Virus record (IMG/VR): IMGVR_UViG_3300031162_001210
Location: 1-35,888 of that record
Origin: a virus
DNA length: 35,888 bases
Reading direction: 5' to 3' (one strand)
The position numbers and the translations under genes are program-made. Below are positions 2,618 through 35,888 of this stretch, one piece after another; positions within the stretch are counted from its first letter, which is position 1; every line of letters starts with the position of its first letter. The notes beneath the pieces are model-generated. The model was not told where the DNA came from. It did not search any database and saw only the letters and a program-made list of their open reading frames with translations.

Positions 2618-2635
2618 ATGTTTCACGTGAAACAT
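2618..2635. promoter_or_regulatory. parS: parS centromere-like site (exact consensus)
   Basis: ATGTTTCACGTGAAACAT is a perfect 18-bp palindrome. Its central 16 bases, TGTTTCACGTGAAACA (2619-2634), equal the bacterial chromosomal parS consensus (TGTTnCACGTGAAACA), to which ParB CTPase clamps bind and load. For random sequence the expected count in a window this size is about 8 in a million. It lies in the 239-base gap between a terminator and the next gene, not in a coding region. The phage also encodes a ParB-like protein (11970-13697). Identity of the motif is seen directly; binding by host or phage ParB is inferred. Confidence 0.85.
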
Positions 2636-11969: not shown

Positions 11970-13697
11970 ATGACTGAATTACAAATGATTCCAATTTGTC
12001 AGCTGCAAGGAAACAAGGCCAACCCCCGAAAGTTGAAGGCCGAAAAATGGCATGACGAGTCCCTCAAAGCCAGCCTTGCTGCACATGGACTGTTGCAGTC
12101 ACTCCTGGTTCACCCGGATGAAGGCAAGACAGACTCTTTCACTGTCATCGCCGGCAACCGGCGGCTTCGTGCGCTGAAAAGCATGGCCGCACCCGATTAT
12201 CTGGTGCCGTGCATCGTGTCAGAAAAAGCGGCACAGGAAGAAGCGATCGCAGAGAACTTCGTGCGAGCCGACATTCATCTAATGGATCATTACAAATCGA
12301 TGTCCAACTTAATGAAAGAAGGGCTGAACACTCGCGAAATCGCAAAACGATTCGGCGTCGACCCCAAATATGTTGAAAAAGTCGTCGCCCTGGGCCAGCT
12401 CGCACCGCGAGCGCAAAAAGCCGTGAAGAACGATGAAATTAATATGCAGACGGCTCAGATGCTCACTACTCTACCTGTCAACGAGCAAAACAAGCTACTC
12501 GACGCCCATATGTCAAATGACGGAACGTGCAACCTCGAACATTGGGACGTGAAACGTCATCTGAACACTGAGAAAGTCAATGTTGATGTTGCCGAATTTA
12601 AGCTGAAAAAATACGACGGCACGTTTTCAACAGACTTGTTCGGCGGCGAGCAATGGTTCGATGACACGGAACAATTCTGGCGCTTGCAAAACGCTACCAT
12701 CAAGTCACGAGTTGACCAGTGGTCCAAATCCTATGGTCTGGTTGAAGAAACCGACGACCTCCATAAATTCGAGTGGGTGCCAGGCTCAATTACGGACCCA
12801 TCCCGAATTGTGAAACTATGGTGTCTGAATAAGCAGGGGCGCTTTCGGTCAACAGATCGGTATTCATTAAAATATGACCAGAAGAACCCGAAAGACAAGA
12901 ACGCCACCGACACAAACGGTGCCGGCACAGAGGTAATTTCCAACGACACAATGACCAAGGCTGGCCGCGCAATTCTCAACAAGGAGATCATTGGCGCACT
13001 ACAGCTCAAGATGCTGGAACATGAACAACTGGTCTTGAAACTCCTGGCACACTGTATTTTAACCAAGGCCAAAAACAACGGTGACATTCCATTGGGCATT
13101 GATTTTCACGTCAATGAATATGCCCGGCAGCTCGATAACATTTACAATCCAGAAGGTCCGGACGGTCCACAAACTGCCGTCAATTCAGATTGCCGAGAGC
13201 CGTTAGGCCAACGTCCAGCCGGTTGGCGAAGTGCGTCGGATAAAGACGTAATTGATCCTAACGAAGTTTGGTCAATGAGAAATCAAGCTGTATATGAATT
13301 TGTCGTTGAGCAAATTGTTTCAACGATGCATCTAACATCGCCAGACAGCCAATTGGCTGACGACAGCTTGATTCGACAACTCGCAAGCGACGTGAAACTG
13401 GACTTTCGCGCAAGCTGGTCAATCACCAAGCACTTTCTGTCAGGCATCAAGAGCAAGGATCGACTGTTCGAAATCGCTACGGAAATGGGTCTGACCAAAG
13501 ATCATCATATGGGCAGCCACATTATCGTTGAGCCCAACGACAAAAAGGGCGACATGATTATCAAAATCGTGGATGCAGAAGAACAGGCCCATCTGAATCC
13601 CGAGCACGAACATACAAAATGGGCCAAATACATTCGGGCCTATGTGCCCAAGGAAGCCTCTATCGATCCCGTCCCCGTCGTTTCCGCCACCAAATAA
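11970..13697 (+). CDS. ParB-like protein, 575 aa
   Basis: ParB proteins bind CTP and centromere DNA. The N-terminal domain shows the family motifs: IPICQLQGNKANPRK at 7-21, GLLQSLLVHP at 40-49, the GERR-like box AGNRRLRALK at 61-70 and ENFVRADIHLMD at 95-106. An HTH follows (LNTREIAKRFGVDPKYVEKV at about 119-138, then ALGQLAP). The remaining 400 residues are unrecognised. Length and layout fit the large ParB-like proteins of proteobacterial plasmids rather than chromosomal ParB (about 300 aa). No ParA is encoded. The HTH differs from that of chromosomal ParB, so its site may not be the parS at 2619. It is the last rightward gene; ATG 11970 follows TGGAG. Confidence 0.8.
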   Translation: MTELQMIPICQLQGNKANPRKLKAEKWHDESLKASLAAHGLLQSLLVHPDEGKTDSFTVIAGNRRLRALKSMAAPDYLVPCIVSEKAAQEEAIAENFVRADIHLMDHYKSMSNLMKEGLNTREIAKRFGVDPKYVEKVVALGQLAPRAQKAVKNDEINMQTAQMLTTLPVNEQNKLLDAHMSNDGTCNLEHWDVKRHLNTEKVNVDVAEFKLKKYDGTFSTDLFGGEQWFDDTEQFWRLQNATIKSRVDQWSKSYGLVEETDDLHKFEWVPGSITDPSRIVKLWCLNKQGRFRSTDRYSLKYDQKNPKDKNATDTNGAGTEVISNDTMTKAGRAILNKEIIGALQLKMLEHEQLVLKLLAHCILTKAKNNGDIPLGIDFHVNEYARQLDNIYNPEGPDGPQTAVNSDCREPLGQRPAGWRSASDKDVIDPNEVWSMRNQAVYEFVVEQIVSTMHLTSPDSQLADDSLIRQLASDVKLDFRASWSITKHFLSGIKSKDRLFEIATEMGLTKDHHMGSHIIVEPNDKKGDMIIKIVDAEEQAHLNPEHEHTKWAKYIRAYVPKEASIDPVPVVSATK

Positions 13698-29209: not shown

Positions 29210-29369
29210 GATGACCTCCTTGCTGTTTGTTTACAACAAAGCCGTAAGCCATCGGTTTGCCCGCTCATTGCGTCTGTCCGGTTTACCTTTTAAGGGCCGG
29301 ACCAGCTGAAATCAGGGCCGTTGCTGTTTGGCTACACCGACCCTCCACATGGAAGGCCGGCTTACTTAC
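29210..29369 (-). other. 160-base gap between scaffold and capsid
   Basis: It holds no gene. Near the capsid start is TTGTT-tac-AACAA, a small inverted repeat, and CCGG/CCGG-type pairings occur further upstream, but no U-run. A promoter giving extra capsid transcript would suit the place; I could not identify -35/-10 boxes. Confidence 0.4.
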
Positions 29370-30152
29370 TTACCCAGCAGCATTCTGTCTGCCAGGGAAT
29401 GTCTTGGCGTATTCCGCCCGAACCTGCTTGATGTATTCAAGGTCACGCTGTTTCGGATCCCAGTATTTGGGATCGTTTTGCATTGTGCGAAGTTCCTCGC
29501 GCGTCTTGACGCCGCCATTGCCGTTGCCGCCGTTGGCACCGTCATCAATCTTGCCGCCCTTGTTTTGCAGTTCTTCCAGCACTTCGATTCCTCCGGGTGA
29601 TGCGATCAGCCGTGTCGCGTGTTCATAAGACTCTGGCGAAAGTGTTGCCTGCAGCCAGTCCTGTGTTGACTGAATACGCGCCTCACCATTTTCGCCAAGG
29701 GCTTCAGCAATTGCCTCACGGTTAGGAAGATTTCCCATCTGATCGAGAGCATATGCCTTGATGCCCTCCATGAATCCTTCTTGCCCCAACCCTGCCTTGT
29801 GCGCCTGATCTTTCCACCACTTGAACATCGGGTTTTCAGGATCAGGCGTGAATGAAACATTTTCAGGGAGGAAGTCATTTTCAAAGGCGACCTCATACCC
29901 CTCTGGTGTCTCTGGCCGATCTGCCGAAACATTTTCCGACTGGAACCGCTCAATAGCTGCGGTTTCCACTTCAGTCTTAAACTCATCGATGGGCTTTCCA
30001 CCAAAGAGCTTGCTGGTTTCGCTTTGAAGCGACGTATAAGCGCCGAGAACATCATCGGTGTTCACGGTCCCGGTTTCGGCGTTCCAGAATTTTTCTGGCA
30101 CGTTTTCCGGGCGTGTCGGGACTTCAGTTACTGATTCGTTTTCATCTGCCAT
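29370..30152 (-). CDS. Scaffolding (head assembly) protein
   Basis: The 260-aa product is strongly acidic and mostly helical with no transmembrane segment. It opens with ENESVTEVPTRPENVPEKFW, carries a middle 'MFKWWKDQAHKAGLGQEGF', and a C-terminal 'LIASPGGIEVLEELQNKGGK'. A Gly/Asn-rich linker follows, then a basic end (QRDLEYIKQVRAEYAKTF). This acidic body plus basic C-terminus is the common layout of scaffolds, the basic end binding the capsid. It lies between the Bbp19-like gene and the capsid gene, as expected. Confidence 0.75.
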   Translation of the reverse strand: MADENESVTEVPTRPENVPEKFWNAETGTVNTDDVLGAYTSLQSETSKLFGGKPIDEFKTEVETAAIERFQSENVSADRPETPEGYEVAFENDFLPENVSFTPDPENPMFKWWKDQAHKAGLGQEGFMEGIKAYALDQMGNLPNREAIAEALGENGEARIQSTQDWLQATLSPESYEHATRLIASPGGIEVLEELQNKGGKIDDGANGGNGNGGVKTREELRTMQNDPKYWDPKQRDLEYIKQVRAEYAKTFPGRQNAAG

Positions 30153-30154
30153 AT

Positions 30155-30457
30155 TTATTCGCCTTGCCGTCCAAGGTTAATCCGCTGTTCAATTAGCCCT
30201 ACCAAGTAACGCTGTCCTTCAAGATGGCGCAATGCACAATCATCGATAGCCGGCCCACAAACGCGCTCGATGGTGATCGATCGAAGATAATCAATAACCG
30301 CCGCACCGTCCGGTCCCGAAAACAACCCTGCAATCAGGCCGTTGATTTCTTGTTCTTCTTTTTGCGTTCGTGATAGGCCGTCGAGCCCATACTTTCGGTC
30401 GGGTTGCTCTTTCAGTTTGGAAATTCTATCCCATCCCGCCTCATGTTTTTTGATCAT
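30155..30457 (-). CDS. Bbp19-like small head protein
   Basis: The 100-aa product contains 'GLFSGPDGAAVIDYLRSITI' and 'CALRHLEGQRYLVGLIEQRI' in its C-terminal two thirds, the pattern of the Bbp19 family first seen in phage BPP-1. The family lies between portal and scaffold genes; no activity is known. ATG 30457 overlaps the portal stop by four bases. The N-terminal 40 residues are basic and unrecognised. Confidence 0.65.
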   Translation of the reverse strand: MIKKHEAGWDRISKLKEQPDRKYGLDGLSRTQKEEQEINGLIAGLFSGPDGAAVIDYLRSITIERVCGPAIDDCALRHLEGQRYLVGLIEQRINLGRQGE

Positions 30458-35686: not shown

Positions 35687-35724
35687 ATAAATCCGTCTGA
35701 TTAAGATAAATCCGTCTGATCAAG
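35687..35724. repeat. 19-bp tandem duplication
   Basis: ATAAATCCGTCTGATTAAG (35687-35705) is followed at once by the same 19 bases with one change, T to C at the 16th position (35706-35724). It lies upstream of the late genes. It could be a protein-binding site of the packaging or late control region. Confidence 0.8.
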
Positions 35725-35800
35725 ACTGCCCTCAGCATGGAGCCAAACTCTCAACAAAAGCCAGAAAAATATGAGAGAAACAACTTCAAGCAGTTCACCG

Positions 35801-35888
35801 CGTTAGCTCAGAACAAGTTGTGTGTGGAATACAAACAACAACGACGTTAGCTCAAACTTGCGTTAGCTGAAACAAAGTTGTGTGTGGA
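35801..35888. repeat. Iteron-like repeats at the right edge
   Basis: CGTTAGCT occurs three times in the same direction: 35801-35808, 35845-35852 and 35861-35868. The first and third copies are each followed by a longer shared unit ending in AAGTTGTGTGTGGA (35815-35828 and 35875-35888), so the array stops exactly at the window end. The stretch 35725-35800 holds nothing recognised. Candidates are a packaging site, a replication origin or part of a terminal repeat. Confidence 0.7.

Follow-up and report, generated by a model that had tools for sequence, protein, structure and literature searches.

The parS site of the chromosomal ParB-parS system, in which ParABS is combined with the loading of SMC, has a consensus that has been given as TGTTNCACGTGAAACA (PMC7022226) and as the 16-bp palindrome TGTTTCACGTGAAACA (PMC7383237), and the core of the 20-bp duplex in the crystal of Caulobacter ParB is the same 18-mer as that described below. 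The use of host ParB by a phage has a precedent in phi29, for which Spo0J-dependent entrapment in the spore has been reported in Bacillus, with the host ParB (Spo0J) acting on phage DNA (Meijer et al. 2005, as described in PMC9437464). A different arrangement is found in phages that partition as plasmids, such as P1, N15, the extrachromosomal mycobacterial prophages and cyanophage Mic1, all of which use a ParA and ParB of their own together with a site of their own, AAATCACCTAAGTTAGGTGATTT in the case of Mic1. Finally, alphaproteobacterial phages contain binding sites for CtrA, and these have been proposed to allow the deferment of lysis (PMC9437464).

A 35,888-base virus record from IMG/VR, referred to here in its entirety as the window, contains an 18-bp perfect palindrome, ATGTTTCACGTGAAACAT, at positions 2618 to 2635, assigned to neither strand, with the exact 16-bp parS consensus inside it (2619-2634). 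Judging from sequence comparisons this is very probably a cis-acting parS site that loads the chromosomal ParB of the host, a "borrowed centromere seed". The 16-bp consensus is identical to that of the chromosomal systems, however the site differs from them in that it lies on a phage genome, is single, has no parAB adjacent to it and is away from a chromosomal origin. It resembles phi29 in the use of host ParB on phage DNA that is proposed here, and the phi29-like phage B103 itself has parS; as in phi29-type entrapment, the parS is found on a phage without its own ParABS, there being no ParA and only a ParB-like protein that is ill-fitting as a reader. In contrast to phi29, the terminase relatives of the window phage are mostly found in Alphaproteobacteria, which form no spores, and a Spo0A-like layer is not known for it. 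By analogy, the window phage may work in a way like phi29, which is a statement of likeness and not of identity.

The likeness to the phage-plasmids consists of a centromere-like palindrome and a ParB-like protein, yet the site in the window is of the host type, a search of its proteins gave no ParA, and the residues that read parS are missing from the ParB-like protein. Because ParA was not found among the proteins scanned and the ParB-like protein fits poorly as a reader, the window, as judged from its gene content, is not a P1-type partition system. With the CtrA sites the common feature is that unrelated phages have convergently captured the site of a host DNA-binding protein of the cell cycle; the difference is that CtrA regulates nearby genes, whereas ParB is a segregation clamp and parS moves freely over genomes.

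The palindrome and its setting

The palindrome is the longest perfect one in the window, the runners-up being 14 bp, and its central 16 bp match the chromosomal-type consensus TGTTNCACGTGNAACA exactly. The original prediction had reported a perfect 18-bp palindrome with the parS consensus at this position, and both its coordinates and its sequence are exact. It had further described the site as unique, which is the case, as the 16-mer is present in a single copy with no further site in the window even at up to three mismatches, and its figure of about 8e-6 sites expected by chance is close to the 7.0e-6 exact copies that we obtain from the base composition of the window.

The site lies in the gap between two plus-strand ORFs, that at 1871-2491, which encodes a coiled-coil-like protein of 206 aa with a match to Pfam E2R135, and a small ORF of 71 aa at 2765-2980; the sole ORF that overlaps it is a mechanical 60-aa ORF on the minus strand, in keeping with the noncoding position that had been claimed. 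The predicted setting among a terminator and a hairpin is also borne out: just upstream, on the plus strand at 2504-2552, there is a strong hairpin with a tail of six T's that resembles an intrinsic terminator (fold z -4.2 over 2492-2764), and a second plus-strand hairpin, GAACAGCGAGACTGCTGTTC, is found at 2572-2591 in the same gap. The hairpin at 2504 is not listed by a simple terminator scan of the window, probably as a result of its bulged stem. That the palindrome is itself a terminator or RNA element was ruled out, as it lacks a T tract and a search of the window against Rfam had no match.

The minus strand of the window carries the genes of a podovirus, with portal, capsid, tail proteins, internal virion protein and large terminase, and the plus-strand block encodes an HTH protein, RusA, a replication-initiation-like protein, an exonuclease, a Rad52-type annealing protein, SSB and the ParB-like protein. 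A megablast search of the first 25 kb of the window against phages gave no match.

The site in related podoviruses

A set of 144 distinct related podovirus contigs (1.40 Mb) was gathered by alignments of terminase and portal. Exact parS is present in four of these 144, compared with an average of 0.0025 for 400 palindromes with scrambled half-sites. When mismatches are allowed the excess is sharp at zero and one and falls to background beyond, with parS at 0, 1, 2 and 3 mismatches found 4, 15, 1 and 7 times and the scrambled palindromes 0, 0.013, 0.5 and 6.7 times; the enrichment across the family is more than a thousandfold over control palindromes. The mismatches of the near sites are confined to half-site positions 1, 3, 5 and 8. 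Position 2, the guanine beside the outermost base, is unchanged in all of them and is the base that is touched by ParB Arg173, as the numbering in PMC7383237 is read. In a search of whole records a site within one mismatch was found in 17 of 50 relatives (11 of 44 as the unbiased rate, six of the 50 having been known carriers beforehand) and the reversed palindrome in none of the 50.

The absence of the palindrome from syntenic relatives had been named as a possible refutation of the original prediction, and here the evidence points both ways, as in the two nearest relatives (~56% in terminase and portal) no site comes within one mismatch, whilst about one in three of the wider set carries one, mostly elsewhere in the genome. 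In the relatives it is found in the opening codons of the scaffold gene or in the last fifth of that gene, in an ORF that precedes capsid, between portal and the gene after it, close to the terminase and within the internal virion protein gene. The window is unlike these relatives with sites in structural genes in that its own site is in the early leader, and its scaffold or capsid assembly gene (29370-30152, minus strand), which is the home of parS in many relatives, has no parS. On the portal tree at least eight changes of parS state are required, the tree being a quick build of 101 rows in which some long branches are unsure.

The peptides VSRET, VPRET and VSHET occur in open frames of the relatives, and for V(S/P)(R/H)ET frames the underlying DNA differs from parS by one mismatch at most in 27 of 27 frame readings, other codon choices never being used, although shared ancestry within each cluster explains part of this likeness. 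A conserved VSRET protein motif as the cause of the match in the DNA was ruled out, as the codons are always parS-like, the position in the protein varies and there are intergenic copies, the 16-mer being outside genes both in the window and in contig L041. As sites differ in their position within proteins and intergenic cases exist, it is the DNA and not the peptide that is kept. From the comparison with these relatives and with the unrelated phages described below, the parS sequence is held by selection and not by chance, the window itself contributing a single site.

Phage and host candidates for the reader

The original prediction overlooked a ParB-like protein that is encoded by the phage itself. 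This protein of 575 aa (11970-13697, plus strand) was identified by a domain search and consists of ParB_N (residues 3-96), HTH_ParB (101-183) and a long C-terminal extension of ~390 residues. It keeps the motifs GNRRLRA and ENFVRAD, which resemble the CTP pocket. The residues of ParB that contact parS are Q162, G170, K171, S172, R173, N178, G201 and R204 (PMC7383237); in the alignment with Caulobacter ParB (6t1f) these become R, G, V, D, P, K, Q and Q respectively, therefore just one of the eight, G170, is kept, and three further solved ParB proteins give a like alignment. A phage ParB able to read the site, as would be expected in a P1-type ParABS system, is thus not what these residues indicate, and the protein is an unlikely reader of the site at 2618. 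With seven of the eight parS-reading residues missing from it, the likely reader is therefore the host ParB. No close kin of the protein was found in the viral contigs scanned, and in named phages the likeness is ~25-35% identity over the N-terminal part only. The second component of P1-type partition, a ParA ATPase, had no match in Pfam or PHROGs among the ~37 window proteins scanned, which come from the larger genes of both strands.

The carriers of the site are in general without a ParB gene: ParB_N is absent from 50 of 50 relatives, from 16 of 16 named parS-bearing phages and from 47 of 50 parS-bearing viral contigs, some of which are fragments. As ParB_N is found in only three of those 50 contigs they are not parAB loci, and contamination with host chromosome was ruled out as the source of the viral-contig matches. 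Terminases related to that of the window are mostly in alphaproteobacterial genomes and MAGs, and all nine alphaproteobacterial genomes with such a terminase contain the exact 16-mer, in one to three copies that are clustered where there are several, with none of the control. The view that this is a parS of the chromosomal type, directed at host ParB, is, at the level of sequence, well supported by the recurrence of the site in phages both related and unrelated, almost none of which has a ParB gene, and by its presence in all nine genomes. The accompanying proposal of silencing or timing of early genes fares less well, as the site moves in the relatives.

Distribution in phages, plasmids and bacteria

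The exact 16-mer is found in at least 120 viral contigs, compared with one for the reversed palindrome. Of 50,697 phage records at least 286 contain it, compared with zero and zero for two control palindromes, and the 18-mer query gives 315; all of these short-query BLAST counts are lower bounds on the records that match, and related records inflate the phage counts, so that record numbers overstate independent events. Among the viral-contig matches listed, 103 of 120 stretches have a single site and 68 of 146 sites are outside ORFs of at least 80 aa, compared with 63 of 480 random positions. Plasmids rarely carry the 18-mer, with only 18 of 72,556 records, some of them chromosome-sized, and it is in none of 5,426 E. 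coli genomes (28 Gb). E. coli and the Enterobacteriaceae are without chromosomal par genes (PMC7022226).

The carriers span the Caudoviricetes, the Microviridae (gokushoviruses) and an inovirus, and those examined include members of the Herelleviridae, Spiroplasma phage 4 with an exact site, phage B103 with one exact site and one with a single mismatch, and Roseobacter phage DSS3P8 with three exact sites. Multiple sites are also seen in the inovirus bajarodino virus 69 (PQ006099.1), with five exact copies over its 5.8-kb filamentous genome, and in Bacillus phage vB_BcoS-136 (MH884508.1), where four within ~1 kb (29256-30261) form a centromere-like cluster. In the T5-like Vibrio phage phi 3 (KP280063.1) the left terminal repeat holds two copies, a near-parS at 821-836 and an exact one at 2934-2949, the latter between A1 and A2. 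This stretch presumably corresponds to the first-step-transfer DNA of T5, and if ParB binds there it would occupy the part of the genome that is first to enter.

The variant TGTTCCACGTGGAACA of Pseudomonas, identical to parS2/parS3 of PAO1 (PMC4368675), is present in 58 phage records, the largest group of which is the 17 Pseudomonas phages. Ten Klebsiella records also carry this 16-mer, amongst them the jumbo phages RaK2 and K64-1. Unannotated records of Listeria phage LM 4-11-1/4-14-1 (OR846xxx/OR848xxx) contain parS together with a Noc-binding site, and some of the OR84-series Listeria records would seem to be fragments of host chromosome. The Noc-type NBS palindrome was rejected, as no records had it other than 11 unannotated ones from Listeria, which resemble host fragments.

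Possible functions of the site

If the palindrome is a loading site for host ParB, then the host protein would bind it through the CTP cycle that is established for ParB, close into CTP clamps that slide along the phage DNA, and so give a coated molecule that looks like an origin region to ParA and SMC. The sequence comparisons demonstrate an identical site, selection at the level of the DNA and, in most carriers, no suitable phage-encoded reader, whilst binding and spreading on phage DNA would follow from the established mechanism of ParB. The benefit to the phage could be genome-level, in the positioning, retention or segregation of infecting DNA in cells that are growing slowly or are not yet productive; this we put forward tentatively, the phage DNA being placed and kept alongside the origin region of the host in the way that has been described for Spo0J and phi29 in sporulating Bacillus. 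A genome-level effect is favoured by the free movement of the site and by its mostly single occurrence. Observations that go against a host-ParB site are its absence from the two nearest relatives, the presence of the Pseudomonas-type 16-mer in Klebsiella jumbo phages despite hosts that have no ParB and, potentially, the exact site in Spiroplasma phage 4.

A different use of the same binding would be titration or diversion, in which many phage copies of parS draw ParB away from the host origin, and with it SMC or partners in the cell cycle, so that chromosome segregation and division in the host are disturbed to the benefit of the phage; we think both this mechanism and this consequence rather unlikely. 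Many of the named carriers are nonetheless in groups that we take to be virulent (the phi29-like, Herelleviridae and T5-like phages), and diversion is a serious rival because the site is rare in plasmids, which would benefit from segregation and depend on a healthy host, and yet is present in such virulent phages. Titration would be expected to produce arrays, however 103 of the 120 stretches listed have a single site, and the independence of position fits diversion and retention equally. Local gene control, in which ParB nucleates at 2618 and spreads over the early operon to delay or silence early genes, is in our opinion improbable. The site of the window does lie in the leader gap of the plus-strand (early) block, and the preference for positions outside ORFs described above is in the same direction, yet a preference for gaps is expected of any site that spares coding sequence. 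ParB is described as repressing promoters beside parS3 and parS4 in P. aeruginosa (PMC5521831). The sites of the relatives are in structural genes and elsewhere, so that no single promoter is served, and this shifting of position argues against silencing or timing of early genes and for a genome-level role.

It is a good deal less probable that the ParB-like protein of the phage (11970-13697) recognises the site as part of a phage partition or regulatory system. The window has both site and protein where its two nearest relatives have neither, and the protein has the ParB_N and HTH_ParB domains and the CTP-pocket-like motifs; against this stand the retention of G170 alone among the contact residues, the carriers without ParB_N and the lack of a ParA among the larger genes scanned on the plus and minus strands. 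That the palindrome arose by chance, or is host DNA in a chimeric contig, has almost nothing to recommend it. This is one site on one metagenomic contig whose nearest relatives are without it, but with 7e-6 copies expected and the family-wide enrichment chance is a poor explanation, and the site is flanked by genes common to the nearest relatives, with the small terminase to one side of it and RusA and the HTH gene to the other. Loading of host ParB is therefore the reading that we prefer.

Possible capture of host centromeres by phages

The repeated gain of parS by unrelated phages suggests, from the sequences, that many phages borrow the chromosome-sorting protein of their host. Whether this capture is a general and repeatedly evolved strategy, shared by tailed phages, Microviridae and Inoviridae, with a parS variant that is matched to the host and mostly not for plasmid-like inheritance, we regard as evenly balanced; a use other than plasmid-like inheritance is indicated because plasmids hardly carry the site. 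No paper on host-type parS across phage genomes was found in a literature search that excluded preprints and most subscription papers, and the breadth of its occurrence in phages is provisionally new, with phi29 and Spo0J as the precedent. The use of host ParB has so far been known mainly from phi29 in sporulating Bacillus, and if host ParB does load at these sites then the ParB, ParA and SMC machine would be a common meeting point for phages of different realms. It would also offer a testable entry to how the DNA of virulent phages is placed, kept or protected before, or instead of, lysis, and the host-matched type of parS would be a simple sequence tag that may aid the assignment of hosts to metagenomic phages.

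Other repeats in the window

Several other repeated sequences are present in the window. A further perfect palindrome of 14 bp, TTGGTTCGAACCAA, is found at 2662-2675, 27 bases past the parS site, and a 25-nt inverted repeat (869-893 and 1188-1212) surrounds ~300 nt of the gap that separates the small terminase gene from the plus-strand block. The right end of the window has short direct repeats, with a 19-nt tandem pair at 35687-35724 and a 29-nt pair, 60 apart, at 35800-35888.
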